64,000 nt of DNA from Chthoniobacterales bacterium (GTDB lineage Bacteria; Verrucomicrobiota; Verrucomicrobiia; Chthoniobacterales; JAATET01): assembly GCA_036569045.1 (NCBI GenBank), contig DATCRI010000006.1, positions 1 to 64,000 of the forward strand, in the 5' to 3' direction. The stretch's first letter is position 1; each line of letters opens with the position of its first letter. Both the position numbers and the translations under genes were made by a program. Below, piece after piece: positions 13,021 to 27,691 of this stretch. The notes under the pieces are model-generated. The model was not told the DNA's origin. It saw only the letters and a list, made by a program, of their open reading frames with translations, and did no database searches.

Positions 13021-13947
13021 TTAGGCGAGGGCGTCCGCGCCGGTGGAGCCGTAGGCAAACTCCGGAAGGCCGTAACCGACGTTGTAGCGGCCGTAGGCCT
13101 GGTAGAGGTATTCGCCCTTGAGGAGCACATGGCTGTCGTTGTCGTTCGTCACCATGTTGGTCGAGGGCTGCAGTTCGGTCTGCACGATCACGGGTTTGAT
13201 CTGCTTGCCGGCTTCGATGAGGAACCAGGCCGTGTCGCTGTAGGAGGCCAACTCGGGAATCACGAGCGGCCGAGCCGTGCCCTTGTTCACGTTGGTCTGC
13301 GACGCGGTTCCCTCAGCATTGGGGATCGTGTCGGCGATGAGGATCTCGCGAGCTTTCGCTTCCAGGGCGGGAGGCACGACGAGCACGAGGTCCGCACCGA
13401 GACGCATCGCGCGGCCCTCGGCATTCAGGCGGCCCTTGAGATTGGCGCGGGCCGTTTCGAAGGTGGAAGCGGCGAGGACGTGCGTGTCTTTGTTCGTGAA
13501 CTTAACCGCCTTCGCGTGGGCCTTCTTGTCGGTGTCGAAGAAGTTTTTGCCGGTGTAGTCCTTGCTTGCAAATCCCTCCGAGAGGAGTTTCGCGACGAGC
13601 TCGCCGGGGTGCATTCGAGCCGCCTCGCCCATCGTGGTGACGAGCGGCGTGTAGACGCCGAGCTTGTCCCGCTGGATGTCGACGCGCTTCACAGGAATGG
13701 TGTCGTGCCACTCCTTGTTTTTGATCGTCCAACCGTGGCGGACGAGGTTCTTGAGCGTGACCTCGCCCAGGAGTTCCTCCATACCCGGAATGGCGCCGAG
13801 CCAGTGGTATTCCTCCTCCGCGCCAGTGGAGGACGACTCCATGGCGAGTTGAAGGAACCAGGGGTCGGGGATGCCCTGGTAGGCTTTGTCGAAAAGTTTC
13901 TGGAACCCTTTTTTAACGGAGTTCAGTGCTGCGGTGCTGATTTCCAT
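13021..13947 (-). CDS. Major capsid protein, Mu gpT family
   Basis: A 308-residue protein clearly of the Mu-like major head subunit T family. It begins ISTAALNSVKKGFQKLFDKA and has the conserved PDPWFLQLAM and EEEYHWLGAIPGMEE segments. The C-terminal part (HVLLKGEYLYQAYGRYNVGY) matches the HK97-fold end of this family. It forms the icosahedral head shell. It follows the decoration-protein gene, and paired hairpins lie downstream. Confidence 0.92.
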   Translation of the reverse strand: MEISTAALNSVKKGFQKLFDKAYQGIPDPWFLQLAMESSSTGAEEEYHWLGAIPGMEELLGEVTLKNLVRHGWTIKNKEWHDTIPVKRVDIQRDKLGVYTPLVTTMGEAARMHPGELVAKLLSEGFASKDYTGKNFFDTDKKAHAKAVKFTNKDTHVLAASTFETARANLKGRLNAEGRAMRLGADLVLVVPPALEAKAREILIADTIPNAEGTASQTNVNKGTARPLVIPELASYSDTAWFLIEAGKQIKPVIVQTELQPSTNMVTNDNDSHVLLKGEYLYQAYGRYNVGYGLPEFAYGSTGADALA

Positions 13948-13986
13948 GGCGGTGATTGATGTCGGTGTGAGTGAGTGGGGTGAGGG

Positions 13987-14490
13987 TTATTTGACGAGCC
14001 CCTGCGCCTGAAGGATCGCGAGGAGAGCGGTCTTGAGCGCAGCGAGGTCGGCCGCGCCGGTAATGGTGTCGGCGCTGGGCACGCGAGCTGCGAACCGCGT
14101 ATCGACCCAGACCCCGTCGCTTGCGACGGCGACCACGCGGCCGGCAACGACCTTGTGCGTGCTGGTCTCGGCGACCGTCTGAAAGTCCTCGACGAAGCAG
14201 TCCTTGCCGATGTCGTCCGCGTCGACGGCGTTCGTCGCGGAGTTCGCGTATTTGAAGATGCCCTTCTTGACATCCGCGGAGACGTCGCCAGCGGAGCCGC
14301 TGGAATTATCGACATCGGCTTCGCATCGGCCTGCCACCCGCAAGCCGGCGGTGTCTGCGGCCTGGACAAGATAACCACTGCTGTTCGTGGCGAGGAGGAT
14401 CCCTGCGTAGAGCGCAGTGGCAGCGGCGACAGGAAGAGTGGTGACGAGGCCCGGACGCTCCGGGGTGTTGATGGCGGAAGTAGCAGGCAT
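13987..14490 (-). CDS. Capsid decoration/cement-like protein
   Basis: A 167-residue beta-rich protein between protease/scaffold and capsid genes, the usual slot of DUF2190-type cement proteins. The sequence contains ALYAGILLATNSSGYLVQA and VAGRVVAVASDGVWVD, typical of small beta-barrel decoration proteins that treat coordinates as parameters (value, label, origin). Likely trimerises on the outer capsid. The family match is inferred from pattern and place. Confidence 0.68.
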   Translation of the reverse strand: MPATSAINTPERPGLVTTLPVAAATALYAGILLATNSSGYLVQAADTAGLRVAGRCEADVDNSSGSAGDVSADVKKGIFKYANSATNAVDADDIGKDCFVEDFQTVAETSTHKVVAGRVVAVASDGVWVDTRFAARVPSADTITGAADLAALKTALLAILQAQGLVK

Positions 14491-14524
14491 GGCGATTTAG
14501 GCGATTGGTGCTTTGAGTTGAGGG

Positions 14525-15511
14525 TTAGGCGGCCTTGTAGTCCGCCTCGGTGAGGCCGAGCTGCTCGGCAACGGCTTTATCTTCGGCGCTCATGGCGACG
14601 ACCTTGTCGGCGGCATTGGCGAGGCCGGAGGGCGTGCGCTGGGCGAGCGGGACGACGCCCTCGGGGAGGTCGGCGATGACCTTGGCGAGGTGCTCGAGCG
14701 GCAGGTCCTTCACAGACTGCGGGACGAGCTTTCCTGCGCGGAGGGCGGCATCGAGCAGGGAGTCGCGCTGACCGGCCTCCATGAGCTTCGTAAGTTTCTC
14801 AACGGAGAGCGAAAGCGCCTCGACCTTCGGATCTGCGGCGCCCTCCTCCTTCTTGCTGAATTTCTCGGCGGCGGCGTTGATCTCGTCGTCGGTCGCCGTG
14901 GCGGGATCGAGGCCGAGGATGGTGCAGAGGAGCTTTTTGGGATCCATGGATTTTTCGGATTTGGCGGGTTCGTTGGTGATGGAGAGAGGGGCGAGGAATT
15001 GCGCGGAAAGCGCGGCGACGAAAGGGGAGGACTTCAGCTTGCCTTGCGTGCAGAGGGCGACGCTGTGAACGAGGACAACTTCGTTGTTCTCGTCGAGGAG
15101 CGGCGTGGGCGAGATGTCGGGGTAGTTGCGGGCGTTCGCCTCGCCGGAAGGAGTCCAGGCAAGGCCTGTGAAATAAACGCCGTCGCCCTCGATCACCTCG
15201 ACAGCGCCGAAGGCGGCATGCTCGCGGGGGTCGGCCTTGAAGTTCGGGTGACCCTTCAGCGATTGATGATTGTAGTCGAAAACGATCTGGTCGAAGCCGA
15301 GGGCCTCCTGATTCGCCTTCAGGCTGGAAAGGGTCTTGGCGCCAACGAGAATCGGCTTGCCGTCGATCTGCTCATTCGCGCCCCAGTTGAAGAGCTTGAT
15401 GCGACTCGGAAGGGTCTCTCCAGGGAGCGCGCTCTCCGCGGCGCGGCAAGGGACGAGCCGACCCTTTGCGGCGAGAGATTTGGCGAGCGCTGTGTTTGGC
15501 ACGGCGCGCAC
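14525..15511 (-). CDS. Head maturation protease with scaffold domain (Mu gpI/Z type)
   Basis: A 328-residue protein from a GTG. Residues 1-~190 match the Mu-like prophage protease I (RIKLFNWGANEQIDGKPILV; DYNHQSLKGHPNF; ARNYPDISPTPLLDE). From ~190 onward it is a charged helical scaffold (FSKKEEGAADPKVEALSLSV). The internal ATG in SMDPKKLLCTILGL, at the domain border, could start a separate scaffold, as gene Z nests in Mu gene I, but no strong ribosome-binding site precedes it. The product is cleaved during head maturation in relatives. Confidence 0.85.
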   Translation of the reverse strand: MRAVPNTALAKSLAAKGRLVPCRAAESALPGETLPSRIKLFNWGANEQIDGKPILVGAKTLSSLKANQEALGFDQIVFDYNHQSLKGHPNFKADPREHAAFGAVEVIEGDGVYFTGLAWTPSGEANARNYPDISPTPLLDENNEVVLVHSVALCTQGKLKSSPFVAALSAQFLAPLSITNEPAKSEKSMDPKKLLCTILGLDPATATDDEINAAAEKFSKKEEGAADPKVEALSLSVEKLTKLMEAGQRDSLLDAALRAGKLVPQSVKDLPLEHLAKVIADLPEGVVPLAQRTPSGLANAADKVVAMSAEDKAVAEQLGLTEADYKAA

Positions 15512-15517
15512 CTTGGC

Positions 15518-15537
15518 AGAGGCCGCAGTCGGCCTCT
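15518..15537 (-). promoter_or_regulatory. Perfect 8-bp hairpin upstream of the protease start
   Basis: An inverted repeat AGAGGCCG / CGGCCTCT with a 4-base loop lies 6 bases upstream of the GTG start of the protease gene and downstream of gpG. It could modulate translation or act as a weak terminator; no T-run follows. Confidence 0.45.
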
Positions 15538-15562
15538 AGTATGGCTGCGGAGCCTGCGAAAA

Positions 15563-16009
15563 CTACGAAATGCCGAGCTTTCGACGGAGCGCCGCCTCCA
15601 CGCGGTCGCGGCCGAGCGGGGTCAGGCGGCCACGTGTGTCGAATGGAAAGAACGGGCGATACATGCGCCCCTTGCCGGCCTGATGATAGACGGCGTAGGA
15701 GCGATCCGTGCCGATGGTGACGGCGCGATTCGAGAGCGATGTGATGCGCGGCGACCGCGCGAGGACGGCATCGCGAATGAGAACGGCCAGGCTCTTGCGG
15801 CGGCGGGCCTTGTCCTTGATCGTGGCCGGCGAGAGCGACGCCCAGGGCGCGGGGCGCACGGCGGACTCCCGGAAGGCCCGCTTGGCAAGACTCTCGATCA
15901 CAAGCCCGGCGGCCTGGAGTGCGGGCGCGGCATCCTTCGCAGCTTTGAGCTTGCGCACGATGTCTGGCGAGATCTGGTCGCTGTCGCGGCGGAGTGTGAA
16001 GAAGGGCAT
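15563..16009 (-). CDS. Phage virion morphogenesis protein (Mu gpG family)
   Basis: A 148-residue protein matching the gpG / Phage_tail_S virion-morphogenesis family: basic, helical N-terminus, the WASLSPATIKDKARR segment and the C-terminal HQAGKGRMYRPFFPF. In Mu, gpG is needed in head-tail morphogenesis and is found bound to capsids. The order MuF - small genes - gpG - protease - capsid is conserved here. Confidence 0.82.
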   Translation of the reverse strand: MPFFTLRRDSDQISPDIVRKLKAAKDAAPALQAAGLVIESLAKRAFRESAVRPAPWASLSPATIKDKARRRKSLAVLIRDAVLARSPRITSLSNRAVTIGTDRSYAVYHQAGKGRMYRPFFPFDTRGRLTPLGRDRVEAALRRKLGIS

Positions 16010-16215
16010 CAGATCTCGATCTGTGGATAGACCTTCACAAAAACCCTGTGAATGGCCTGCCGATCGGCATATCCCGAGTCCACTTGAATCACATCCGCTG
16101 ATCCGAGAAAGACGACTGTCTTGCCGGCGTGATCGGCCGCGGGAGACTCAACCCGATCTCCAGGCTTGTAGGGCGACGAAGGGCCGCGGAACGTTAACGT
16201 GAAATCCGATTTCAT
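16009..16215 (-). CDS. Small phage protein (68 aa), unrecognised
   Basis: A 68-residue beta-rich protein with an SH3-like flavour (SPYKPGDRVESPAADHAGKT ... DRQAIHRVFVKVYP). It shares a base with the gpG start and overlaps the upstream small gene by 4 bases. The KPGDRV turn followed by alternating hydrophobics is reminiscent of small capsid-portal adaptors, but no family is recognised. Confidence 0.5.
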   Translation of the reverse strand: MKSDFTLTFRGPSSPYKPGDRVESPAADHAGKTVVFLGSADVIQVDSGYADRQAIHRVFVKVYPQIEI

Positions 16216-16421
16216 TTCGAGATGCGCTCAGGAGCGTCCCCATGCGTCTTCTCCAAATTGGGACCCCACTCGCCAAGAATCACGAAAACGCTCGCGCCGG
16301 CGGGCACGAAATACGCTCCAGCTTCCTCCCGGTCGTAGCCATCATCCCAAACAAAAGTGACGTCAGAGGCGCCGGAATTTTTCAACTCGTCGAGCTTTTG
16401 GATCAAGCGATCAATTTTCAT
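16212..16421 (-). CDS. Small phage protein (69 aa), unrecognised
   Basis: A 69-residue protein starting MKIDRLIQKLDELKNSG, then TFVWDDGYDREEAGAYFVPA. It is an acidic single-domain protein of one helix plus sheet. It overlaps the downstream small gene (ATGA) and starts 7 bases after the stop of the 53-residue gene upstream. Function unknown. Confidence 0.5.
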   Translation of the reverse strand: MKIDRLIQKLDELKNSGASDVTFVWDDGYDREEAGAYFVPAGASVFVILGEWGPNLEKTHGDAPERISK

Positions 16422-16428
16422 TTTCAGG

Positions 16429-16590
16429 TTATTCCATCTCGACCACGTCACTCTCGCCGTCGATCTGGCCGAGGATCTCGGCGGCGACTTCTTCGTTGCC
16501 GTGCAGGAGCGCGAGCGCGGATAGGGCGTCGTGGCGCTCCATCTGGCCGGCGGCATACGCATTTTGAATGTCGAGGGATTGCTCGTTCAT
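16429..16590 (-). CDS. Short helical phage protein (53 aa)
   Basis: A 53-residue frame from ATG at 16590, which overlaps the MuF stop as TGATG. It begins MNEQSLDIQNAYAAGQMERH and ends ILGQIDGESDVVEME. It is acidic and wholly helical in appearance. Tight coupling to both neighbours supports it being real. Role unknown. Confidence 0.5.
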   Translation of the reverse strand: MNEQSLDIQNAYAAGQMERHDALSALALLHGNEEVAAEILGQIDGESDVVEME

Positions 16591-18149
16591 CAGGCCCATC
16601 CTTTCGCGGTGAAAAATGCGTCCATCGCCTGGGCGATCGGCGCGAAATCATGCTCGTCCCATTGCCGCCAGGATTCAAGACTCTGACTGACGGCATCGAG
16701 ATCGCGGAGCAGTTCCTTGTCGCCGGAGCGCAGGGCGATCCATTGCGCGTAGGCGCGGGCGAAGATTTCGTGGCGCTGGAGGAAGTAGGCCTTCCGCTTC
16801 ATCGGCAGGTGACTGGCGATGATCTCGCCGACGGCCTGCGACTTGCCGGCGGCGGCCATAATGCCGGCCAGCCCGCCCGCGTCGGAAGCGAATCGCCCGG
16901 CCTTTCCGAGCACCTGATGATCGAGAAAATGCCCGATCTCGTGCGCCGCCGTGAGGCGTGGCCACGGGCCGGAGATCCGCACGCCAATGCCGCCGGCCGA
17001 GCCGTCGTGGCGGAAGCGGTATTCGCCGAGGGCGGTCTTCCCCGTCTTCGCGTCGACCGCGATCTTCGGCAGCGCGCCGTCGTCGTGCACGGCATCGATC
17101 GCGGCGAGCGTGGTCTTCACGATCTGGCGGATCTGAGGGCCGCCCTGGACGGAGAGCGCGGCGCTCACGGGCGCGGAGCGCTGCCGGCCGGGCACGGCGC
17201 CGGGCGCCGGCGTGGCCCCGGCGGCGGTCTTTGCCAGCTTGCCGGAGGCGACCAGCGCCTTGCCGCCGAGCCACTCCCAGACGGTGGCACCCGCCTCGGG
17301 AATGCCGGTGGCCTGCGCCCACTTCTCAAACTTCGCCCACACGTCCGCATCATAGCGAGCCCGAAGCGTGTCGAGCGGGATGCGCAGTTCGCTCGGGCTC
17401 CATTCGTAACCGTCGGCCTTGCCCTTCTCGCGCTGGGTGCGGAGGTCGAAGATCTGGTTCGGACCGAGCACGAGCTTGCGCTCCTGTTCGACCTTTGCAA
17501 GGGCGGGGCCGTCGAGCACGTCGCGCTCCTCGAGCGGCCGCTTCGCCTCGGCGCGGCGCAGGTCATCGACTTCATCTTCCATCATGGGGACGACCTGGCA
17601 CCGGCAGCCCCATTCCCACGGCGGGAAGTGATTCTTCCAAAACTCCGAGTTTGCTGGCAACACCTTACCGTCGAGCGCGGCGTGCGTGTCGCGCACTTTC
17701 GCGTCGCCCATCGATTGATATTTCCAGAACGGGAACACGTCGCGCTGTGCATCCATCGTGCGATAGCTGGCGGCGGCATAGGCTTGGAAGCCGTGAATCC
17801 GCAGGAGGAGCTCCGCCCGGCCCTCGGCGTGCCGGCGGGCGTCGTCCTTGGTCATATAGATCGGGTTTCCGTTCTCGTCGTAGCCGGCGCGCTTACCGAC
17901 GAACGATGGCGCGATCTCGTCGACAATCTGCCGCTTTTGCTGATCCCAGTCCGCCCCCGCCGGAATCTCGGCGACGAGATCGCGAACGCGCTGGAGCGTG
18001 TCGTGATGCTCGATTCCCGCCATTGTGAAGGCGCGGGCGCGCAGCTCCGGGAGCAGCTCGCCGAAGATCTTCGCGGCGATTGCAGGCTTCGCCTTGATAA
18101 AGGCAATGGCCTCGTCGTGCGGCGTTGGCTCGAGCAGGAAATCAGGCAT
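16590..18149 (-). CDS. MuF head-morphogenesis protein fused to a zincin-like metalloprotease domain
   Basis: A 519-residue protein. Residues ~100-195 are the MuF domain (SMGDAKVRDTHAALDGKVLP ... FPPWEWGCRCQVVP), which binds the portal and enters the head. The C-terminal ~220 residues add a domain with HEIGHFLDH at about residue 400 and RHEIFARAYAQW about 50 residues later. These are an HExxH zinc site and a plausible third-ligand helix. Mu gp30 lacks such a domain, but MuF proteins with C-terminal toxin/effector domains are known in other phages. It may be ejected into the host cell or act during assembly. It starts 2 bases after the RT stop. Confidence 0.85.
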   Translation of the reverse strand: MPDFLLEPTPHDEAIAFIKAKPAIAAKIFGELLPELRARAFTMAGIEHHDTLQRVRDLVAEIPAGADWDQQKRQIVDEIAPSFVGKRAGYDENGNPIYMTKDDARRHAEGRAELLLRIHGFQAYAAASYRTMDAQRDVFPFWKYQSMGDAKVRDTHAALDGKVLPANSEFWKNHFPPWEWGCRCQVVPMMEDEVDDLRRAEAKRPLEERDVLDGPALAKVEQERKLVLGPNQIFDLRTQREKGKADGYEWSPSELRIPLDTLRARYDADVWAKFEKWAQATGIPEAGATVWEWLGGKALVASGKLAKTAAGATPAPGAVPGRQRSAPVSAALSVQGGPQIRQIVKTTLAAIDAVHDDGALPKIAVDAKTGKTALGEYRFRHDGSAGGIGVRISGPWPRLTAAHEIGHFLDHQVLGKAGRFASDAGGLAGIMAAAGKSQAVGEIIASHLPMKRKAYFLQRHEIFARAYAQWIALRSGDKELLRDLDAVSQSLESWRQWDEHDFAPIAQAMDAFFTAKGWA

Positions 18150-18151
18150 GG

Positions 18152-19153
18152 TCAGTTGAGATGAGGCTTGGCGGATTCGACGAGTCCCAGACTCCGGAAG
18201 AGGTTGCGGGCGTTGGCGTGGCCGGCGTGGCCGCGCCAGGCGGGCAGGAAGCGGTCGATGGCGGCCTGATCGCCGCGCGCGCGGAGGATGCGTAGCGTGC
18301 GTTTGGCGCGCTTCACGCTGTCGCGCCGCAAGAGGCGGTGGGTGGGCCACATGCGGAAGCCGAGGAAATTCACGCCCCGGCTGATCGGCTGAATACTCCA
18401 TTTGGAGAAGCGCAGGCCCATGACGTCGGAAACGACGCGGTCGATGTGGCCCTTGAGGAAGTGCAGCTCGTCGAGGCTGCTCGCGAAGATGACGGTATCG
18501 TCCATGTAGCGCGTGGCCGTGGTGACGCCGGCTTCGTGGACGAGGAATCGGTCGAGAATGTGGCCGTAAAGATTGGCGAAAAGCTGGCTCGTGAGATTTC
18601 CGATGGGCAGGCCGCGCCCTTCGGTGGGGACGATCGCTTCGATGAGGCGAAGCGTGCGTGCACAGGTGATCTTGCGGCGAATCTCCCGGTGCAGGACGGC
18701 CCGGTCGATGGAGGCGAAGTATTTCGAGAAGTCCATCTTGAGGCAGAAGACGGGGCCGCGCTCGGCGAGGCGGCGCATGTGCATCTGGGCGCGATTCGCG
18801 CCGTAGTGCGTGCCCTTCCCTTTCCGGCAGGCGGCGGCCATCGGGAGCAGCATGGCGTCGAAGATGGGCTCGATGACGTTGCAGAGCGCGTGCTGGACGA
18901 CGCGGTCGTAAAACGGCAGAGCCATGATCTCGCGGGCCTTTGGCTCGAAAACCGTGAATGTGTGGTAGGGCGGCACGACGTAAGTCTCCGCCTCCAGCGC
19001 CCAGGCGATGCGCGAGAGATTTGCCTCGGCGTGCTCTTTGAACTGGAGATGGCCGGGCGTCATGCGCTTGTCGCGACGGGCACGGCGGTAAGCCTCGCGA
19101 AGATTGTCCGCGTCGATGATCTGCTCGAAGAGATTGCGGTGTTTCTTGCCCAT
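18152..19153 (-). CDS. DGR reverse transcriptase
   Basis: A 333-residue reverse transcriptase. Motifs: DFSKYFASID at 141 (catalytic Asp), IGNLTSQ at 184-190 (the IGxxxSQ signature that separates DGR RTs from retroviral and group-II-intron enzymes) and YMDD at 216-219. It has no maturase or endonuclease domain. It copies TR RNA into cDNA with errors at adenines, which then replaces the VRs. The chosen ATG overlaps the methyltransferase stop (TAATG), implying coupled translation. An upstream in-frame extension to 19285 lies inside the methyltransferase gene and was not used. Confidence 0.95.
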   Translation of the reverse strand: MGKKHRNLFEQIIDADNLREAYRRARRDKRMTPGHLQFKEHAEANLSRIAWALEAETYVVPPYHTFTVFEPKAREIMALPFYDRVVQHALCNVIEPIFDAMLLPMAAACRKGKGTHYGANRAQMHMRRLAERGPVFCLKMDFSKYFASIDRAVLHREIRRKITCARTLRLIEAIVPTEGRGLPIGNLTSQLFANLYGHILDRFLVHEAGVTTATRYMDDTVIFASSLDELHFLKGHIDRVVSDVMGLRFSKWSIQPISRGVNFLGFRMWPTHRLLRRDSVKRAKRTLRILRARGDQAAIDRFLPAWRGHAGHANARNLFRSLGLVESAKPHLN

Positions 19154-20058
19154 TACGCGGCCTTGAGTGCGTTGATAATGTCGGTCGCGACAGGCGGACA
19201 AACGGCGTTTCCGAGCATCATGAGCGCGTCCTTCTGTCGAGTTGGGAGTTTGTAGACGGCAGGGAACCCCATGGCTTTGCGGCATTCCTCTATGGAGAAC
19301 ATCCGCATCCGATCTCCATCAACAATGGCCCATCGATCACGGGTTGTGATTGTGCCGACAGGCCGCTGGAGCGAGCGGCCGCCACGCTCGTTCCCGTAGT
19401 AAGCAGTGAGGAACCGTGCACCATGAGTGGCGCGCCCGGCCTCGACTCGAGTGAGCGTTGCGCTTGAGCGACCCGGCTTGTCGACCGACGACCAGCGTCC
19501 GGAATTGAAATCGACGATATTTTCCGCGCCGACGTGCTGCCGAATTGGAAGCTTGAGTTGCAGCGGCGAAGCGCTGCGCGTGCCAATAATAAAGACTCGG
19601 CGGCGATGCTGCGGCACGCCGAAATCGGCAGCGTCCACAATGTGAGGTGAGAGCGAGTAGCCGAGCGCCTGCAAGGCGATGGACCATGCCGGGTAGAGAG
19701 CCCATTTTAAAAACTCGGGAACATTCTCAACGACGATGTGGTCCGGTTTGTGGAACTCGGCGCAGGATACAACAGCCCACGCGGTGGAGCGCTGTTTGTC
19801 GTGATGGGGCCGGTCCTTTCCCCGCGCGCGCGTGTGTCCTTGGCAGCATGGCGAGGCCAGAAGGACATCGTGCTTCGGAACGGCCGACCAGTCAGCTTGA
19901 TGAAGATCCTGACACGAATGTCGGGCATGCGGGTGATTGGCATGGTGATATTCCACGGCGGCCGGCCAGTGGTTGGCCGCCCAGACGACTTGAACTCCGG
20001 CAGCGCTTGCGCCAGCGGTGAAGCCGCCGAGGCCGGAAAATAGATCGATCGCGGTCAT
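19153..20058 (-). CDS. Cytosine-5 DNA methyltransferase, inserted between DGR template and RT
   Basis: A 301-residue C5 methyltransferase: SAM motif IDLFSGLGGFTAG at 4-16, catalytic motif SPCCQGH at 69-75 (variant of PCQ with two adjacent Cys), ENVPEF (motif VI) and QHRRRVFIIG (motif VIII). No endonuclease gene is nearby, so it is an orphan enzyme, likely an anti-restriction or regulatory modification of phage DNA. TTG at 20067 is an alternative start. Its stop overlaps the RT ATG. The target sequence cannot be read from the protein. Confidence 0.9.
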   Translation of the reverse strand: MTAIDLFSGLGGFTAGASAAGVQVVWAANHWPAAVEYHHANHPHARHSCQDLHQADWSAVPKHDVLLASPCCQGHTRARGKDRPHHDKQRSTAWAVVSCAEFHKPDHIVVENVPEFLKWALYPAWSIALQALGYSLSPHIVDAADFGVPQHRRRVFIIGTRSASPLQLKLPIRQHVGAENIVDFNSGRWSSVDKPGRSSATLTRVEAGRATHGARFLTAYYGNERGGRSLQRPVGTITTRDRWAIVDGDRMRMFSIEECRKAMGFPAVYKLPTRQKDALMMLGNAVCPPVATDIINALKAA

Positions 20059-20344
20059 TTCGGGCAAAGCGAGGCGCGAGATTCGACGACGGCTTTCGCC
20101 GCGCTACTCCTCGTTTTCCTCATGGGGTTGGGTGTTTGCCGAAGCGGGATGAACGGGCTGACCACCTGATTTTTCAGAAGTCGGCCCCGGTGGCCTGGAG
20201 TTGACCGGGCCGGGAGCGAGAGACCTGTTGACGTGGAAGTCACAGCGGCCGCGAGCGCCGATGTTGTCGTTGGAGTTGTTGGCGTTGTCGTTGTTGAGCC
20301 GGCGAGGGCCAGCGTCGGACGTCCTCCAATTGCCGCTACCCCGT
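20059..20344 (-). ncRNA. Putative DGR template RNA region (TR plus ~180-nt downstream spacer)
   Basis: The interval between the Avd stop and the methyltransferase start has no supported protein frame. It holds the TR (20239-20337) and a 180-base spacer downstream on the minus strand. In the Bordetella DGR the TR is copied from an RNA that also includes flanking avd and spacer sequence needed for RT priming. The equivalent RNA here should be transcribed leftward. The exact ends are unknown. Confidence 0.6.
20239..20337 (-). repeat. DGR template repeat (TR)
   Basis: A 99-base sequence that, read on the minus strand in the target frame, is rich in AAC codons (CTC AAC AAC GAC AAC GCC). It is 84-90% identical to the two variable repeats. 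Sixteen differences to VR1 and ten to VR2 all fall at TR adenines (counting the first codon, where the boundary is uncertain). The adenine-poor 3' end (GGCGCTCGCGGCCGCTGTGAC) is identical in all three. It lies outside any credible coding frame, as a template should. Confidence 0.95.
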
Positions 20345-20737
20345 TCATCCCTTTTTCGCGGCCTCCCTCGCCGTTTTGATCCACGCGCCGAGCATTTTGC
20401 CGACCTCCGCCAAGTGAACGGCGGCCGTCTTGTGCTGGTTCTGCGAAATCAATTCCCGTTTGGGAGCGGCGAGGAACCGCAAATAGAACCGCAGGAGGCC
20501 GAGGCCGGCGTCTGCGGTGTAAAGTCGTGAGAGTTGCCTGGATTTGCCGGCCTCGACGAAAAGCTCGACCTGACCGAAGGCCGCTCGCTGCACGGCGTCG
20601 CGCAAGATGGCATGCTTGCGCGGGATGCCGAGCAGGATCGGATAGACGTAGTCCAGGAACGTCTCGTAGCGCTCGACGATGGCGAGCTGCTGGTTGCAGA
20701 CGTATTCGTCCTGGATGAGTCGGGAGTCGGGTTTCAT
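20345..20737 (-). CDS. avd: DGR accessory variability determinant (Avd-like)
   Basis: A 130-residue, basic, all-helical protein (VERYETFLDYVYPILLGIPR ... RAAFGQVELFVEAGKS ... RFYLRFLAAPKREL). Size, composition and position directly upstream of the TR match Avd, the pentameric four-helix bundle that binds RT and template RNA and is essential for retrohoming. The gene starts 29 bases after the target-1 stop, just past the hairpin, and ends 7 bases before the TR. Confidence 0.85.
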   Translation of the reverse strand: MKPDSRLIQDEYVCNQQLAIVERYETFLDYVYPILLGIPRKHAILRDAVQRAAFGQVELFVEAGKSRQLSRLYTADAGLGLLRFYLRFLAAPKRELISQNQHKTAAVHLAEVGKMLGAWIKTAREAAKKG

Positions 20738-20744
20738 TTTTCGT

Positions 20745-20809
20745 CGCGCTTCGCTTTCGCTACGCGCTAGGCAAGGATCAGGTGGTCACAGCGGCCGCGA
20801 GCGCCGATG
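20745..20809 (-). repeat. 65-bp direct repeat downstream of VR1: hairpin, stop codon and homing-initiation region
   Basis: Identical over 65 bases to 21612-21676. On the minus strand it holds the adenine-poor 3' end of the VR, the last codons HLILA, the TAG stop, then an imperfect hairpin (GCGCGTAGC, loop GAAA, GCGAAGCGC). In the Bordetella DGR a GC-rich IMH and a GAAA-loop hairpin/cruciform just after the VR mark the acceptor. The TR lacks both the CACCTG continuation and the hairpin. Confidence 0.8.
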
Positions 20810-21582
20810 CCGCCGTAGGAGACGCTGGCGAAGACGTAGAAGAGCCGGCGAGGGCCAGCGTCGGACGTCCGCCAATAGCCGCCCAGGATGGCGATCCATC
20901 CCGAGGGGCGGATGTCGCGACTCCAGGTCCACATGCAGCCGGTCACCTGTTCGACGCCGACCGTGCTGCGCAGGCCCTTGATGTGACCGGTCTTTTTCGG
21001 GTCCTTGCCGGCAGACTGATTTTCGACGACGCCGATCGCGGCCAGCTCGAACTCGGCGGCGCTGAGGAGCTGCTTGCCATGAGCGGCGAGCAGATCCCGA
21101 GCGGTCCAGAAATTGAACCGTTCAGCGCGGATGCCAGGGCCGACGAGCGGCGGATTGTCGCCGTCCGCGATGACTGCTCCGGCTCGACTGGTGCCCTCGG
21201 TGAAGGCGTTCGCGCCGGTGAGGTAGATGTCGACCCAGAACGTGTCGCCGACGAGCACCATGCCGCGCGGGTCGGGTGCGGAGGGGCGGAACGCGGCGTC
21301 CCAGATGGAAGCCTCGACGATCTTGCCGTCGAGGCCCACATGGAACCCGCCAGCGGCGTGCTCCGTGACAAAGTCCTCGTCGTAAGGCGCGGCCTCCGCC
21401 CGGAGTTTCCCGGCCTTTTCGACGAGGAGGTAGTCGGTGCCTTTGGCGAGAACCTTCGGAACGATGATCTCGGCGGCTCCGGGAATATCTTCGATTTCGA
21501 CGCCGGGATTCACGGCGAGGTTGCCGCTATCGTTCACGTAGAACGCGCGGGCGTGAGTGTTTGGTTTCGTGAGTGTTTTCAT
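20767..21582 (-). CDS. DGR target protein 1 (C-type-lectin/FGE-fold variable protein)
   Basis: A 271-residue protein ending in the variable repeat (VR residues ~234-266), then HLILA. Upstream of it are SIWDAAFRPSAPDPRGMVLV, DIYLTG and GLRSTVGVEQVTGCMWTWSR, typical of DGR targets with a formylglycine-generating-enzyme-like C-lectin fold that displays variable side chains on a stable scaffold. Probably a phage tail-tip or fibre-head adhesin. In VR1 nearly all TR Asn codons have become F, Y, V, S or G, so this copy is strongly diversified. It is paralogous to the next gene upstream. Confidence 0.92.
   Translation of the reverse strand: MKTLTKPNTHARAFYVNDSGNLAVNPGVEIEDIPGAAEIIVPKVLAKGTDYLLVEKAGKLRAEAAPYDEDFVTEHAAGGFHVGLDGKIVEASIWDAAFRPSAPDPRGMVLVGDTFWVDIYLTGANAFTEGTSRAGAVIADGDNPPLVGPGIRAERFNFWTARDLLAAHGKQLLSAAEFELAAIGVVENQSAGKDPKKTGHIKGLRSTVGVEQVTGCMWTWSRDIRPSGWIAILGGYWRTSDAGPRRLFYVFASVSYGGIGARGRCDHLILA
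20785..20883 (-). repeat. DGR variable repeat 1 (VR1)
   Basis: The last 33 variable codons of target 1. Relative to the TR it has 16 substitutions, every one at a template adenine (for example AAC to TTC, TAC, AGC, GTC, GGC). No substitution lies at G, C or T of the template. The invariant last ~24 bases should form the IMH. Confidence 0.95.
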
Positions 21583-21611
21583 GGAATTGGATTTTTGGAA
21601 TTTGCGGCGGA

Positions 21612-21676
21612 CGCGCTTCGCTTTCGCTACGCGCTAGGCAAGGATCAGGTGGTCACAGCGGCCGCGAGCGCCGATG
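21612..21676 (-). repeat. 65-bp direct repeat downstream of VR2 (second copy)
   Basis: Second copy of the 65-bp VR 3' end / stop / hairpin block, identical to 20745-20809. Perfect identity of non-coding bases beyond the stop suggests recent duplication of the target gene end, or selection on the acceptor structure. Confidence 0.8.
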
Positions 21677-22377
21677 AAGTCGTTGGAGTAGTAGGCGAAG
21701 TCGAAGTCGAGCCGGCGAGGGCCAGCGTCGGACGTCCTCCAATTGCCGCCCGAAAGGAGTGCGTAGCGGTCGCTGTCGATGTCGCGCGTCCACGTCCACA
21801 TGGCGCCCGTGACCTGCTCAAGGCCTACGGTGCTTCGCAGGCCGTCGACGTGAGCAGTCAGCTCGGGGCGCTCGCCGCAGGTCTTGCCTTCGGTCGCGCC
21901 GGCCGCCGCGACCGAGAACTCGCCCGCGCTCAGGAGCTGCTTGCCCTGGGCGGCGAGCAAAGCGGTCGCGGCCCACCAGCTGATGTCTCGCGCGATCTTC
22001 GCGCCAGGGCGGCTCGTGCCGTCCTCGGCCGTGAGGTAGATGTCCACCCAGCCGACGCCGGGCACGAAGACCATGCCGCGCGGATCGGGCGCAGACGGGC
22101 GGAACTTCGTGTCCCAGATCGAGGCCGGCACGATCGCACCGTCAAGGCCGACGTGGAAGCCGCCGACCTCACCAGGGATGCGAGCCATGCTGGCCGCCAG
22201 ATCGCCGGAGTCGGTGGGGTGAATCGAGTAATCGACGCCTGGCGCGAGCGCGGGCAAGGCGACGAAGGGATTGATCGGCGGGATGTCGTCGAAGGTGACG
22301 CCGTCTTTAATGACGAGGCCGCCGCCTTTGACCTCGAAGGCGGGGGTGAATGGGTCTGCTTTTGATGTGATTTTCAC
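21634..22377 (-). CDS. DGR target protein 2 (C-type-lectin/FGE-fold variable protein)
   Basis: A 247-residue paralogue of target 1, read from a GTG start. The shared core is VGGFHVGLDGAIVPASIWDT, FRPSAPDPRGMVFV, DIYLTA and GLRSTVGLEQVTGAMWTWTR. The C-terminal VR (residues ~210-242) is followed by the same HLILA end. The N-terminal ~80 residues differ more, suggesting a different attachment point. VR2 keeps some template Asn codons, so it is less changed from the TR than VR1. It is first in the DGR transcript. Confidence 0.92.
   Translation of the reverse strand: MKITSKADPFTPAFEVKGGGLVIKDGVTFDDIPPINPFVALPALAPGVDYSIHPTDSGDLAASMARIPGEVGGFHVGLDGAIVPASIWDTKFRPSAPDPRGMVFVPGVGWVDIYLTAEDGTSRPGAKIARDISWWAATALLAAQGKQLLSAGEFSVAAAGATEGKTCGERPELTAHVDGLRSTVGLEQVTGAMWTWTRDIDSDRYALLSGGNWRTSDAGPRRLDFDFAYYSNDFIGARGRCDHLILA
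21652..21750 (-). repeat. DGR variable repeat 2 (VR2)
   Basis: 99 bases, ten substitutions from the TR, all at adenines (AAC to GAC, TTC or TAC; AGC to GGC). The flanking constant parts are identical to VR1 and TR. Tyr, Phe and Asp replace Asn, the residues DGR targets typically favour in binding sites. Confidence 0.95.
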
Positions 22378-22425
22378 TGGTATGGTGTTGGTTGCTCCCG
22401 ACGCACCATGCCGCCGGGAAATTGG

Positions 22426-22986
22426 TTACTCTCGGCAGCCTTCGCGACAGGCGCGCTGGAGCTGGCCAGGGAGTTCGTTGAAGGTTTTGTCCCGATAATC
22501 GGCAGCGTGGTCGGGGTATTGGTCTTCCAAATAGGCGCGCCACCCGGGCGGAGCGGCGTCTACTGTTTTACTGGCGCCGGCGGCTTTTCGCGCGCCCTTG
22601 CCGCGCATCATGCGTGCCTCGGCGACATCGCTCTCGAATTGGTCGGGCTGGAGGAGATTCACCAGGCGAAGCGCTCCCGGATTGCGCTTGTCGCGCTCTA
22701 TCTGGCTGCGGAGATAGACGCAGACGATGCGGACATCCTCGCCGATGGCATCCGCATCGCGGCCGCGGTCGACGTAGAGATCCCACCACAGGCGTTGGAA
22801 CTCGGGACGGAGCGCGAGCGGCAGGCCGGAGTAGCGGCAGAACTTCGCATGGAGCCCGGCGACGATTGCCGGGCCGTCCTCAACGTGGCTCTCGCCGCGC
22901 TTCGCCGCGGCCTGTAGCGCGTTTTCCGGCGCTAGGTGCCGCTGGACAGCGGAGGCAGCGGCTTCTGCGGAATTTCGGGGCTTCAT
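22426..22986 (-). CDS. Phage protein upstream of the DGR, unrecognised (186 aa)
   Basis: A 186-residue, basic, mostly helical protein (RIVCVYLRSQIERDKRNPGA ... PGWRAYLEDQYPDHAADYRD). It ends 48 bases before the first DGR target and starts 12 bases after the HTH gene upstream. No family recognised. Position between replication-type early genes and the DGR suggests an early or transition function. Confidence 0.55.
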   Translation of the reverse strand: MKPRNSAEAAASAVQRHLAPENALQAAAKRGESHVEDGPAIVAGLHAKFCRYSGLPLALRPEFQRLWWDLYVDRGRDADAIGEDVRIVCVYLRSQIERDKRNPGALRLVNLLQPDQFESDVAEARMMRGKGARKAAGASKTVDAAPPGWRAYLEDQYPDHAADYRDKTFNELPGQLQRACREGCRE

Positions 22987-22998
22987 GGAATTGTTGAT

Positions 22999-23433
22999 TC
23001 AGCTCCAGGGCGCGCGGAATTTCTGGACGCGCTCGGGCGTCCAAAAATCGGGATCCTTGGTGGCCTCGAGATGAGCGAAGAGAGAGTCAATGCTCACAAG
23101 GATCCTCCCAGGCGAAGGCTGAGAGCCGTCGACGAAGCCGGCCGTGATGAGGCGGCGGATCGTGTCGTAGCTGATACCGACGAGCTTCAGGATCTCACTG
23201 ATCGGGACCTGGGTGTCGTAGATCCGGACAACTGGCGCAAAGGTGCCGTCGCCAAGTTTCTGCCAGGTGAAGACCCCGGAGCGTCGCGACTCCGGCGCCT
23301 CGGTAAGATAGACCGCCTTTTCGCCAGGCGCGGCGGAGACAGTCGTTAGAGACTCCCCTCGCCGAAAACACGGCGTCTTCCCGGTTCCGTTGGCGCGAGC
23401 GGGCATGTTGATGATCGCGACGTCGTTCTTCAT
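22999..23433 (-). CDS. Helix-turn-helix DNA-binding phage protein (144 aa)
   Basis: A 144-residue protein whose residues ~75-115 (YDTQVPISEILKLVGISYDT, then IRRLITAGFVDG) form an excisionase/MerR-like winged HTH followed by SPGRILVSIDSLFAHL. A likely transcription regulator. As it precedes the DGR and head/tail genes in the same direction, it is a candidate middle/late activator, like Mor/C in Mu by position though not by sequence. The start overlaps the previous stop (ATGA). Confidence 0.65.
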   Translation of the reverse strand: MKNDVAIINMPARANGTGKTPCFRRGESLTTVSAAPGEKAVYLTEAPESRRSGVFTWQKLGDGTFAPVVRIYDTQVPISEILKLVGISYDTIRRLITAGFVDGSQPSPGRILVSIDSLFAHLEATKDPDFWTPERVQKFRAPWS

Positions 23434-23792
23434 AGGAGGTTGAGCTGGCGGGGGACGGCTTCGGCTTTGCGGCGGTTGAACTCGTGACGAGCCTCGACCC
23501 ACGAGAGCGCCTCGTAGGTGCCCTCCCGGCTGGAGGCATGTCGGTCGGAATCTTCGACGGGGTGGGCACTGCCGCCTGCGGCGGATCGAGGAGCGAGGGT
23601 GACAAACCCGATCTGGCAAAGCTCCGTCACGCGCGGGCGGACGTTGAGGATGTCCCAGCCCATCGCCTTCGCGAGGTCGCGCGTGGTCGCCGGGCCATGG
23701 CGAAGCAGGGCCATGTAGACGGCGTTCCGGTCTTTATTGAGCCGGCCGGCAATGTCCTCCCAGGTCGCGTTGCGGTAGTCGATGGGCTGCAT
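23430..23792 (-). CDS. Winged-helix DNA-binding phage protein (120 aa)
   Basis: A 120-residue protein with an N-terminal winged helix: AVYMALLRHGPATTRDLAKA, then MGWDILNVRPRVTELCQIGF, the pattern of MarR/replication-terminator-type wHTHs. The C-terminus is a basic helix (EALSWVEARHEFNRRKAEAV). A paired arrangement with the following HTH gene suggests two small regulators of the leftward operon. Confidence 0.65.
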   Translation of the reverse strand: MQPIDYRNATWEDIAGRLNKDRNAVYMALLRHGPATTRDLAKAMGWDILNVRPRVTELCQIGFVTLAPRSAAGGSAHPVEDSDRHASSREGTYEALSWVEARHEFNRRKAEAVPRQLNLL

Positions 23793-23795
23793 GGT

Positions 23796-24335
23796 TCAAA
23801 ACGGAATGTTGCTGTCGTCGACGTCGGAGAAGTCCTCGACAGGCGCGGGCAGCGGTGCGCGGCGAGGTGCGGCGGGTTTGCGGTTCCGGATGGTGAAGAC
23901 CAGACGCCAGAGCTGCTTCTCGGAGGCGTCTTCGAGCGAGCAGCGGTATTGCGTGCGGCAGATCGCGGCGGCGTAGGCTGGCGACAGACCTTTCGCGGCG
24001 CACTCGTGCATGAGCTTGTGGAGAGCGACGCGCTGCGGCTCCGTCTCGCGACGCATGTGCGCCTGCATGGCGGCGACGGGCTTGCCGGCAAGGTCGAGGA
24101 AATGGGCCTTCAGCGGCAGGTAGTCGCCTTGCGAGGCCTCGCTGATGCGCCGTCCGCAGCATTTGATGGCTTGGGCGTGCCGCCAGAGATCGAACTTTGT
24201 CTCACCGCGGACGATCTGCGGCTGTTTCGCGAAGGCCTCGCGAGAGAGCATGGCGAGGCGCTGCTTCTGCTGGCTCGAGAGCGGGGCAGCGACGCAACTG
24301 CGGTCGACGGAATCGGCTGGCACGCGGGAGTTCAC
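23796..24335 (-). CDS. Phage early-region protein, unrecognised (179 aa)
   Basis: A 179-residue basic protein. The middle has two Cys (IKCCGRRISEASQGDYLPLK) and the end is an acidic tail DFSDVDDSNIPF, similar in style to the acidic C-terminal tail of single-stranded-DNA-binding proteins that recruits partners. In Mu-like phages this part of the genome often carries GemA (gp16), but the match to GemA is not convincing. Function open. Confidence 0.55.
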   Translation of the reverse strand: MNSRVPADSVDRSCVAAPLSSQQKQRLAMLSREAFAKQPQIVRGETKFDLWRHAQAIKCCGRRISEASQGDYLPLKAHFLDLAGKPVAAMQAHMRRETEPQRVALHKLMHECAAKGLSPAYAAAICRTQYRCSLEDASEKQLWRLVFTIRNRKPAAPRRAPLPAPVEDFSDVDDSNIPF

Positions 24336-24514
24336 GGCAAGACTTCCTCCAGGGCTGCGGCGAAGCGCTCGTGCAGGCGACCTTCTTCGACCTGATCGAA
24401 CGGGCGAGGCGTGAAGCCAGCGTAGATGCCGCCGAGCGTGCGGCTAATGCGTTGCGAACGCTCGGCGTGCCAATCGCGAAGCTCCCGCAGGACGGCGATG
24501 GTTTTCTCGTCCAT
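24332..24514 (-). CDS. Small phage protein (60 aa), unrecognised
   Basis: A 60-residue amphipathic helical protein (TIAVLRELRDWHAERSQRIS), overlapping the next gene by 4 bases (ATGA). Part of the chain of short early genes. No function assignable. Confidence 0.5.
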   Translation of the reverse strand: MDEKTIAVLRELRDWHAERSQRISRTLGGIYAGFTPRPFDQVEEGRLHERFAAALEEVLP

Positions 24515-24516
24515 GG

Positions 24517-24681
24517 TCAGAACCTCCGATGCGGGGGGATGTGCTGGCCGCGCTCGCGGCGTGGGCGCCAGAGAATTGCTCCGACGGCGAGGCCGGCGCC
24601 GATCTGCACGAGCGAGAGCGCGAGCATCACGGCGTAGCCGGAGAAGGTGAACTCGGTGAGAGAGTCGAGGATCTGCTTCAT
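24517..24681 (-). CDS. Small single-pass membrane protein (54 aa)
   Basis: A 54-residue protein with one strong membrane segment (YAVMLALSLVQIGAGLAVGA) and a basic cytoplasmic tail (RPRRERGQHIPPHRRF). The ATG at 24681 overlaps the upstream stop. In the early operon such a protein could affect superinfection or host membrane functions; this is speculation. Confidence 0.5.
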   Translation of the reverse strand: MKQILDSLTEFTFSGYAVMLALSLVQIGAGLAVGAILWRPRRERGQHIPPHRRF

Positions 24682-24965
24682 GGCTGGGAGGATTTCGGGT
24701 TGCACCGGGCGACCAGCCACTCGGCGAGGTCGGCTGGACCGTGGAAGTTGCGGACGTTGAAGGCGCTCTTGATCGAGATCATCGGCGACTGGAGGTCGAA
24801 CCGGATGCTGACCGCGAAGTCGTTCGTGCCGGCATTGCCGAAGGCCGTGGCCTCGCGAATGAGCGCCTCCAGGACGAATTGCGTGACCTCGCGCTCCGAG
24901 AGCGGCTCGGCGGGCGGCAGGGTGAGGGCGCGGCGTGCGCGCACAGTGGCGCTGGCGGCGTTCAT
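24678..24965 (-). CDS. Small phage early protein (95 aa), unrecognised
   Basis: A 95-residue protein with a central helix (EREVTQFVLEALIREATAFG) and a C-terminal segment ADLAEWLVARCNP. Overlaps both neighbours by 4 bases. No domain recognised. Confidence 0.5.
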   Translation of the reverse strand: MNAASATVRARRALTLPPAEPLSEREVTQFVLEALIREATAFGNAGTNDFAVSIRFDLQSPMISIKSAFNVRNFHGPADLAEWLVARCNPKSSQP

Positions 24966-25576
24966 GCGTTTGCTAGATCGAGGTTGATCTGACGGTAGGC
25001 GCCGGCATCGTCGCGTTTGTAGATGCGGATATAGCTGCGCGTGCTGCTCACCTGAAGGCTGTCGCCAATAGCCTCCATGGCGCGTGCCCAGCGACCGTCT
25101 TTGATGTCGAGCTTTCGTAAACTCAGGATGCGAGCGGTATCGATCTTGCCCGTGCGGTCGACCTGAAAGGCGTCGCCGATGAGGGTGACGATCTCGGGAC
25201 GAGCCCCATCAGCCCATTCCTTGAGACACTCGTCGATCAAGGCCTTGGCGGCTTGCAGGCGCTCGTCGAAGACGAGCTGATCGGCGATCGCGCGGTGAAC
25301 CTTGATGCTGCCGTTGAAGCTCACGAGCGTGAGATTGCCCTTCTTTCCTCCGATGGTGGCCCCGTATTTCTCGGCGCTCAGTTCGGCGAAGGCCTCAACG
25401 TCGCCGAAGGCTTTTTGGCGGAAGGCACGGAGGCGATTGTTGATGTCCTCCGCGATTGCGAGGAGTTCCGCGAGCAGGCAGTCGCGCTCTTGGTCGATGG
25501 GCTTGATCTGTGCCTCGGGGATGAGGCGGCCTTTCGCGTCTTCCCGGTATCCGACGGGGAGTTGAGTATTTTTCAT
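24962..25576 (-). CDS. DUF3164 family phage early protein
   Basis: A 204-residue protein fitting DUF3164, a family found in Mu-like and related phages next to transposition or recombination genes: KGRLIPEAQIKPIDQERDCL, AFAELSAEKYGATIGGKKGN, LVSFNGSIKVHRAIADQLVF, TRSYIRIYKRD. Function is undefined in the literature known to me. It is co-directional with MuB and overlaps the upstream gene by 4 bases. Confidence 0.8.
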   Translation of the reverse strand: MKNTQLPVGYREDAKGRLIPEAQIKPIDQERDCLLAELLAIAEDINNRLRAFRQKAFGDVEAFAELSAEKYGATIGGKKGNLTLVSFNGSIKVHRAIADQLVFDERLQAAKALIDECLKEWADGARPEIVTLIGDAFQVDRTGKIDTARILSLRKLDIKDGRWARAMEAIGDSLQVSSTRSYIRIYKRDDAGAYRQINLDLANA

Positions 25577-25785
25577 TTGGCTTTCGGTTTAGGTTTGCGG
25601 CGGGGGTGAATAAGGCCTGCCTCAGCCAGGGCGACGGTGGCGTTCGCCAGAGCGGGGATGCAGTCGGCGCAGACGGGGCCGAGGGCGTCGTCGACGATCG
25701 GCGCGCCGTCCTTGCCGCGAGCGGCGGGTTCGTCCTCGCAGCACAGGCAGAGCGGGACGTTGGTGCCGGGGATCGTGGTCGTCAT
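25573..25785 (-). CDS. Small zinc-finger-like phage protein (70 aa)
   Basis: A 70-residue protein with CLCCEDEPAARG near the start and VCADCIPAL about 20 residues later, a CxxC...CxxC zinc-binding pattern, and a basic tail PRRKPKPKAK. Possibly a DNA- or protein-binding regulator. It overlaps both neighbours by 4 bases. Confidence 0.55.
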   Translation of the reverse strand: MTTTIPGTNVPLCLCCEDEPAARGKDGAPIVDDALGPVCADCIPALANATVALAEAGLIHPRRKPKPKAK

Positions 25786-26207
25786 GCCAGGCTCCTTTCC
25801 TCGGTGGCCGCGCGGGCGGCGAGGATACGGCGGTTCGCCTCGCGCACGCGGCGCTCGTGCTCGGCCCGGCAGCGCAGGGCGCGCTCCCAGGCGAGTTCCT
25901 TGCCGAGGGTGTCGATGTTGAACCGGCGTTTCTTCGCGCCTAGCTGCACGCAGAAGTAGCGGCGAGGCTTGCAACCGGGGCCTTTGCGCTCGCGGCTGTA
26001 GCTGATGCCGGCGACGCCGGTGCGCGACCGGACATCGGTCGAGCGCACGGTGCGCAGGTATGGCCCGCGCACGGCGACCCAGTGCCCGCCGGACTTCTTG
26101 CGACCGGCCTTCGCGCCGCGCAGGGCGTCGGGATCGGGCAGCTCGAACCGCGGACGCGTCGCCGCCTCGGCGCGGCGCTCGGGATCGTGAGCAGTCATGC
26201 TAGACAT
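25782..26207 (-). CDS. AP2-like DNA-binding phage protein
   Basis: A 141-residue basic protein. The middle (VAGISYSRERKGPGCKPRRY, then FCVQLGAKKRRFNIDTLGKE, then AWERALRCRAEHERR) has the strand-strand-strand-helix pattern of AP2/integrase N-terminal-type DNA-binding domains, with conserved Gly, aromatic and 'LG...F' positions. Such domains occur in phage homing endonucleases and regulators, but no nuclease domain is visible here. ATG at 26198 is an alternative start. Confidence 0.6.
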   Translation of the reverse strand: MSSMTAHDPERRAEAATRPRFELPDPDALRGAKAGRKKSGGHWVAVRGPYLRTVRSTDVRSRTGVAGISYSRERKGPGCKPRRYFCVQLGAKKRRFNIDTLGKELAWERALRCRAEHERRVREANRRILAARAATEERSLA

Positions 26208-26422
26208 GTCTCAAGCCCCCCCCCCCGCACGGTTTTGCGGGCGTCGTCGACAGAGGCGACGGCCTGCTGTTTCACGAACTTCTCGACGCGTTCCTCGATC
26301 TCTTCGAGGAACGCGGGCGAGACGCGATTGGCCTTGATGCCGAACTCTGCGCAGGCCGCCAGGGCGAGCCGACGAACCTCGGAGAAGCGGAGCAGGCGTC
26401 CGGATTTGGCTTCCGCGCTCAT
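26195..26422 (-). CDS. Small phage protein next to MuB (75 aa), unrecognised
   Basis: A 75-residue helical protein (RFSEVRRLALAACAEFGIKA, then AFLEEIEERVEKFVKQQAV). It starts 4 bases inside the end of MuB (ATGA) and overlaps the AP2-like gene. It resembles a short histone-like or coiled-coil protein. No function assigned. Confidence 0.5.
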   Translation of the reverse strand: MSAEAKSGRLLRFSEVRRLALAACAEFGIKANRVSPAFLEEIEERVEKFVKQQAVASVDDARKTVRGGGLETCLA

Positions 26423-27435
26423 CGGGACTCGACCTCCTGCGAGATGGCGGTAGACCAGCAATTCAGATCGGGTCCGGCGGTGCCGTCGGCGAGCTTCACG
26501 ACGCGGGAGACCACGTCGCGGACGAATGCGAGATTCCCGAAGGTCTGCACCTTGCTCTTGATGAGCTTGATGGCCTCGGCGACGCCATCGACGGCGGCGA
26601 CCTCTCGCGGCTGCATGCCGGCGAAGGCGGGCACGCGGCGAGCGATGAGTCGCAGGATGTCGTTTTCCCGGGCCGTGCCGAAGCGAAGGCGCTCGGCGAG
26701 GCGGTTGCCGGTGAGCTGGCGGGCCTCCTCGTAGGCCTCGCGCTGGAGGCGCTGCCAGAGGGTGCCGTAGGCGGCGGCGATGAACTCGCCGGGGGTGAGG
26801 TTGATGAGCGTCTTGAGCGTGTTGAGGCAACGCAGGCCCATGTGGTGGGCCTCGTCGATCGCCACGCACACGCGGGTCTGCCGCAGGCGCTGGATCACCT
26901 TTTCCATGCGATCGACGGCGAGCGTGGGCTGGTCCTTAATGCCAAGGGCGGTAAGGATCGCGCCGAGGAAGGCGTTCGGATTGTCGTTCCACACCTCCAT
27001 CGCCTCGATGAGGAGCACCCGCGCGCCGAACTTCGCCTGGAGCGCGGCGAGCGACTTCGTCTTGCCCGCGCCGGTGTCGCCCTCAATGAGGATGAATCGG
27101 GCGTTCCCGCTCTCGCGGGCGGTCTCGGCGAAGGCCCGCTTCAGCTCGAGCACGGTGGAGAAATCCTCGTAGGTTTCGTCGGCCGTGGTCTCGCTGCTGG
27201 CGAGGCTCTCGATCACCGCCCAGACGGCGCGGTAGTTGTCGAGCTGCCGGTCGAGATCGAGCTCGAGCAGGTCGTTGTTGCAGATACGTGTGTAGGTCTT
27301 CGTCGAGCCAAGCCCGGCGAATTTCTTCACCATCGCGTTGTCGGACAGCCGCTCGGCGGTCTGGTATTCGCGAATCTGGAGGCCGAGCTTGACCAGCTCG
27401 GCGGCGTCGCGGGTGTCGAGAAGCTCAGGCGCCAT
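26419..27435 (-). CDS. MuB-type AAA+ ATPase, target-DNA activator for transposition
   Basis: A 338-residue AAA ATPase with Walker A IEGDTGAGKTKS, Walker B CVAIDEAHHMG and sensor-like GEFIAAAYGT. The N-terminal ~75 residues (LSDNAMVKKFAGLGSTKTYT) match the HTH domain of MuB/ISTB-like target-binding ATPases. MuB coats target DNA, stimulates MuA strand transfer and confers target immunity. It lies downstream of MuA with one small gene between. Confidence 0.9.
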   Translation of the reverse strand: MAPELLDTRDAAELVKLGLQIREYQTAERLSDNAMVKKFAGLGSTKTYTRICNNDLLELDLDRQLDNYRAVWAVIESLASSETTADETYEDFSTVLELKRAFAETARESGNARFILIEGDTGAGKTKSLAALQAKFGARVLLIEAMEVWNDNPNAFLGAILTALGIKDQPTLAVDRMEKVIQRLRQTRVCVAIDEAHHMGLRCLNTLKTLINLTPGEFIAAAYGTLWQRLQREAYEEARQLTGNRLAERLRFGTARENDILRLIARRVPAFAGMQPREVAAVDGVAEAIKLIKSKVQTFGNLAFVRDVVSRVVKLADGTAGPDLNCWSTAISQEVESR

Positions 27436-27691
27436 GGCTGCGAGCGGAGTTGAGGGTGAAGGGAGCGCCGGTGATGAGCGCGCCCAGGCCGCGAGGCTCG
27501 ATGCTCTTCGCCGGGCGCGGCGTGGCGTGGAGCCCGGCGAGTTTTTGCAGCCGGCGGGCGTCCCGCTCGAGGCGAGAGATTTCAAATTGCTCGTGACGCA
27601 CGGCTCGCGCCAGGTCGCGGCGACGCTGGCGCGCCTGCCGGACGAGTCGCGCGGCGCGCCAGTTAAGGATGAGTCGGATGAGGGAGTTCAC
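27425..27691 (-). CDS. Small coiled-coil protein between MuA and MuB (88 aa)
   Basis: An 88-residue protein from a GTG preceded by AAGGAA four bases earlier, a good ribosome-binding site that decides the start. Residues 1-55 are a basic amphipathic helix (ILNWRAARLVRQARQRRRDL, then ARAVRHEQFEISRLERDARR) suited to coiled-coil or DNA contact. It overlaps the MuB start by 11 bases. Unknown function, possibly an accessory to the transposition complex. Confidence 0.6.
   Translation of the reverse strand: MNSLIRLILNWRAARLVRQARQRRRDLARAVRHEQFEISRLERDARRLQKLAGLHATPRPAKSIEPRGLGALITGAPFTLNSARSHGA

Follow-up and report, generated by a model that had tools for sequence, protein, structure and literature searches.

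A C5 DNA methyltransferase gene separates template RNA from reverse transcriptase in a BPP-1-type diversity-generating retroelement of a Mu-like prophage

The window analysed here, a stretch of 64,000 nucleotides from a Chthoniobacterales bacterium (GCA_036569045.1, contig DATCRI010000006.1), almost certainly encodes a complete BPP-1-type diversity-generating retroelement (DGR) that rewrites two Mtd-like target genes and is carried by an intact-looking Mu-like prophage. On the minus strand, from 22377 down to 18152, it comprises target 2, target 1, avd, the template repeat (TR), the spacer, a C5 DNA methyltransferase gene and the reverse transcriptase (RT). The new element in this arrangement is the methyltransferase docked between the template RNA and the RT; the occurrence of a DGR in a Mu-like transposable phage is already known. 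A sequence-only reading of the same DNA had described a complete DGR with two targets bearing variable repeats (VRs), an Avd-like gene, a TR and an RT, and we recovered every one of these parts on the minus strand; the methyltransferase gene and the true start of the RT had gone undescribed.

The RT (18152..19153, minus strand, 333 aa) displays the motifs IGNLTSQ and YMDD, in line with the IGxxxSQ and YMDD signatures noted earlier, and matches phrog_1423 (E 3e-116). Among solved structures, it matches that of the BPP-1 RT best (8UB7, E 9e-96), and it is 48% identical to Brt. The open reading frame listed for it spans 18152-19285, with the true start being the ATG at 19153 (MGKKH..., as in its relatives). 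The avd gene (20345..20737, minus strand, 130 aa) is recovered by the bAvd family PF22296 (E 5e-29), by NF033474 above its cut-off and by the structure of Bbp7 (4DWL, E 9e-34). Target gene 1 (20767..21582, minus strand, 271 aa), which ends in VR1, retrieves the Mtd structures (1YU1 etc.; E 8e-31) and the tail protein family phrog_11262 (E 2e-54). Target gene 2 (21634..22377, minus strand, 247 aa), which ends in VR2, is a Mtd-like tail/receptor-binding protein of the same family (E 8e-44) and is 50% identical to target 1. The likeness to the Bordetella BPP-1 element that had been suggested is thereby upheld in the RT, Avd and target 1, which match the solved BPP-1 RT, Bbp7/Avd and Mtd respectively. 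Judged from the sequence match to Mtd, the target that bears the VR at its 3' end is of the C-type-lectin (Mtd-like) kind, and it is by homology to Mtd that both targets are predicted to function in receptor binding.

The TR (20239..20336, minus strand) is rich in AAC codons, as had been observed before, and aligns without gaps to VR1 (20785..20882, minus strand) and VR2 (21652..21749, minus strand). Over the 98-nt core, which contains 23 adenines in the TR, all 15 differences in VR1 (hypergeometric P = 2.7e-12) and all nine in VR2 (P = 5.2e-7) fall at template adenines. The 16 and 10 differences counted previously, all likewise at adenines, are reproduced once the 5' boundary base 20337, which adds an A-to-G change to each repeat, is included. 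Totals of adenine specificity over many loci were not used as a test, because the finder that delivers them favors changes at A. A whole-genome search for further VRs returned none beyond VR1 and VR2.

Both VRs are followed by the same 3' flank (20746..20784 for VR1 and 21613-21651 for VR2, minus strand), namely an initiation-type tract CACCTGATCCTTG, a TAG stop codon after VR1 and a stop likewise after VR2, and a hairpin of the form GCGC..GC-GAAA-GC..GCGC. This combination of an IMH-like tract and a GC-GNAA-GC hairpin is absent after the TR. In most relatives, as in BPP-1 (with a counterpart in the locus L030; PMC3240598), the VRs are followed by a similar cap, and efficient retrohoming of BPP-1 requires this hairpin (PMC3240598); the stem in the present element, with two internal mismatches, is weaker than the 8-bp stem of BPP-1. 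On the template side, the TR leads directly into a structured spacer (Sp) RNA region (20071..20238, minus strand), which aligns with the BPP-1 spacer (GGTGGTCAGCC...TCCTGCTTCGGC.AACAC). RNAalifold analysis showed that its terminal helix (20121-20110 paired with 20080-20071) is covarying, with pairs changing on both sides in several relatives. In BPP-1 the spacer RNA recruits the RT-Avd complex, and cDNA synthesis is primed from an adenine within the spacer (summarised in PMC12875486). By analogy, the retained spacer should be all that priming requires in our element, and the functional RNA would not extend into the methyltransferase frame. If the element operates as BPP-1 does, the TR and spacer would be transcribed as RNA, which the RT and Avd would copy while misreading adenines; the mutated cDNA would then replace the VRs at the 3' ends of the two receptor-binding genes, with the GC-rich IMH and the hairpin beyond it marking the sites, and the TR would stay unchanged. 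The outcome would be variation in the receptor binding of the phage.

The carrier is a Mu-like prophage of 36,335 bp (3086..39420), with inverted-repeat ends sharing AAGTTTGAAATG and a 5-bp duplication, GTGAT, on its flanks (3081-3085 and 39421-39425). It is present as a single insertion copy and splits a host copper amine oxidase gene (window 2022-3085 and 39421-40279), whose two parts rejoin in frame across GTGAT (...DPHPNH-ARKNAFD..., the joint falling between PNH and ARKN). The earlier assignment to the Mu-type transposable prophages is therefore sustained by the gene set, the target duplication and the interrupted host gene. The gene set includes a MuA-type transposase (27729..29807, minus strand), which is recognized by a weak match to phrog_310 (E 5e-9) with no Pfam match and is 97% identical to its counterpart in the contig of the related locus L004, and a MuB-type transposition protein (26419..27585, minus strand; phrog_296, E 1.5e-17; AAA_22). 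Further members are a Mu portal protein (DUF935; 37576..39210, plus strand; PF06074, E 4.5e-66), a Mu-like gpT major head protein (13021..13947, minus strand; PF10124, E 1e-60), a Mu-like gpI protease (14525..15511, minus strand; PF10123, E 1.5e-25), a Mu gpF-like head protein directly after the RT (16590..18151, minus strand; PF04233, E 4e-15), a tape measure protein and a CI-like repressor. A ParB-like protein (29896-30702) adjoins the transposase gene. At the prophage's right end, the terminase-like and portal genes (35824-39210) are encoded on the plus strand and apart from gpF and the head genes, an arrangement that departs from that of Mu. The prophage also codes for a large protein with laminin-G and carbohydrate-binding domains (window 4584-6617, minus strand), which is a second candidate for host-surface binding. 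A scan with the gpI protease gave a match in L004 only. Within the order of the host, RTs of this DGR clade found elsewhere are distant ones only (33-40%), and there are none in three genomes of the same genus.

The methyltransferase gene (19153..20058, minus strand, 906 bp, ATG at 20058) encodes an orphan C5 DNA methyltransferase (PF00145, E 8e-48; TIGR00675; phrog_116). It begins 12 nt past the final base of the spacer helix (20071), and its stop codon overlaps the RT start codon at 19153 (TAATG), such that it is docked without damage to either the spacer RNA or the start of the RT. The RT consequently does not follow the spacer directly, an order that is usual but not obligatory, the relative order of TR and RT being variable among known DGRs (PMC3521204). 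The distance from TR to RT is 1086 nt both here and in L004, an IMG/VR contig from a separate metagenome (3300049574_000329), as against 116-255 nt in the other 69 of 70 BPP-1-clade loci. L004 is also the only one among these 70 distinct related DGR loci in which the gap is occupied by a methyltransferase, and we accordingly rejected the idea that this enzyme is a general DGR partner for the BPP-1 clade. In the nearest relatives (L005, with an RT 78% identical, and L006 and L007, at 74%) the spacer runs directly into the RT, with no methyltransferase. Because these relatives lack it, and the gap remains at 116-255 nt everywhere except in L004, the gene was probably inserted at the RNA/RT joint in a common ancestor of our phage and L004. 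The arrangement is rare. Literature searches, with many subscription papers outside their reach, returned nothing specific on a methyltransferase inside a DGR.

As to what the gene does there, the likely explanation is that it is an ordinary anti-restriction methyltransferase, which recombination brought into a gap where an insertion is tolerated and which leaves diversification unaffected. It belongs to an abundant mobile phage family (364 relatives), it left the spacer RNA complete, and it is absent from the closest DGR relatives, L005-L007; its most likely role is the protection of phage DNA from restriction. Less easily accommodated are the TAATG overlap, by which translation of the RT is probably coupled to, and partly dependent on, that of the methyltransferase, and the recurrence of similar genes near DGRs. 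These same observations lend themselves to an unlikely alternative, in which the methyltransferase belongs to the DGR, modulating retrohoming or co-regulating the RT, and the gap between TR and RT serves to accommodate DNA-modification genes instead of being a place where one landed by chance. The exact placement between the spacer RNA and the RT, overlapping the RT start, speaks for it, as does the situation in another clade, where a C5 methyltransferase lies directly 3' of the RT and overlaps its stop codon in L037, and within about 210 nt after the RT in several other loci. Likewise, the TR-RT interval houses a PAPS-reductase-like gene in three of that clade's 76 loci. Among the 80 best methyltransferase loci, eight, one of them L004, lie within 5 kb of an RT of the kind described here, and six of the seven others have an adenine-specific TR/VR pair. 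Weighing against such a partnership, the gap is filled only in L004 among the 70 BPP-1-clade loci, phages commonly carry this methyltransferase family, mostly with no DGR nearby (72 of 80 loci), and elsewhere the gene stands at varying positions with respect to the DGR; a control with tape-measure genes gave 0 of 15 loci with a DGR, a sample too small to provide a rate.

The C5 DNA methyltransferase genes that start where a DGR RT ends, or a little beyond, comprise those of L037 (3919-5903), L233, L217, L247, L252, L253 and L282, and most of those outside L037 are only ~30-35% identical to ours. The PAPS-reductase-family genes in the TR-RT slot of that phage DGR clade, which is unrelated to ours, are those of L055/L216 (L055 9123-9887), L223 (4865-5947) and L287 (~4854-5972). 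From the cases seen so far, the joint between spacer and RT tolerates cargo, and this cargo is of the DNA-modification or auxiliary type, perhaps by chance. It is conceivable, though unlikely, that the interval between template RNA and RT in phage DGRs represents a recurrent landing slot for genes of the DNA-modification type (C5 methyltransferase here, PAPS-reductase-like in the unrelated clade), which are translated along with the RT and may adjust retrohoming or shield newly rewritten phage DNA.

Comparison with L004 also bears on whether the element works. The two cassettes share ~90% DNA identity over 7.3 kb and their TRs are identical over 98 nt, whereas their VRs carry different alleles: VR1 differs at 16 positions and VR2 at 13, all of them TR adenines. 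The VRs of L004 differ from their own TR likewise at adenines alone (13/13 and 11/11), and outside the VR just 38 of 700 positions of target 1 differ between the two phages. Such a pattern is expected if adenines go on being mutated while the template stays fixed. The sequence-only reading had held that VR differences at non-adenine positions in other isolates, or VRs fixed across strains, would tell against a DGR; between these two phages there are no non-adenine changes and the VRs are not the same. Since the VRs differ only at TR adenines while the TR is identical, the two sequences suggest that the element has worked since the phages split and was recently active. That it was formerly active and has since decayed, with its repeats now fixed, is very unlikely given the open frames of RT and Avd and the divergence of the VRs at adenines only around an identical TR. 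The chance that DGR and methyltransferase were fused artefactually is negligible, for although the genome is a 91-contig assembly, the same junctions are present in L004 from its separate metagenome.

The pair formed with L004 offers, in a phage that has received little study, a clean natural test of DGR activity based on two alleles. With a whole gene between them and the RNA helices conserved, the template RNA with its spacer and the RT behave as separable modules, which bears on how little context DGRs need. Should the docking of modification genes turn out to be functional, it would to our knowledge connect DNA methylation with targeted hypermutation for the first time; the literature covered mentions no such connection.

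Among known systems, L004 has the same DGR, inclusive of the methyltransferase and an identical TR, but differs in its VR alleles and in its RT (94% identical) and target 2 (79%). With the BPP-1 DGR (mtd, avd, TR, brt) our element shares the order target-avd-TR-RT, the RT noted above, homologous Avd and Mtd proteins, the spacer RNA motifs, the IMH and the GAAA hairpin. Unlike BPP-1, it has two targets, a methyltransferase between spacer and RT and a Mu-like carrier, and its targets are shorter than Mtd, lacking the N-terminal part of the latter. The combination of a DGR with a transposing phage had been taken as unusual, but it was already published for the hankyphage of Bacteroides and is present in the deposited genome of Bacillus phage BalMu-1 (NC_030945). 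The hankyphage, likewise a Mu-like transposable prophage, is flanked by 5-bp duplications and has a DGR acting on a tail fibre gene (PMC6199706, PMC12135933), and activity of this DGR has been detected (PMC12135933); it differs from ours in host and phage, and a word search of PMC6199706 found no mention of a methyltransferase. BalMu-1 is similarly Mu-like, encoding a transposase, a Mu Gam-like protein, a candidate target, an Avd and an RT; its DGR, in contrast, is located at the right end after the tail genes, its RT is 41% identical to ours, and its avd and RT have no methyltransferase between them.
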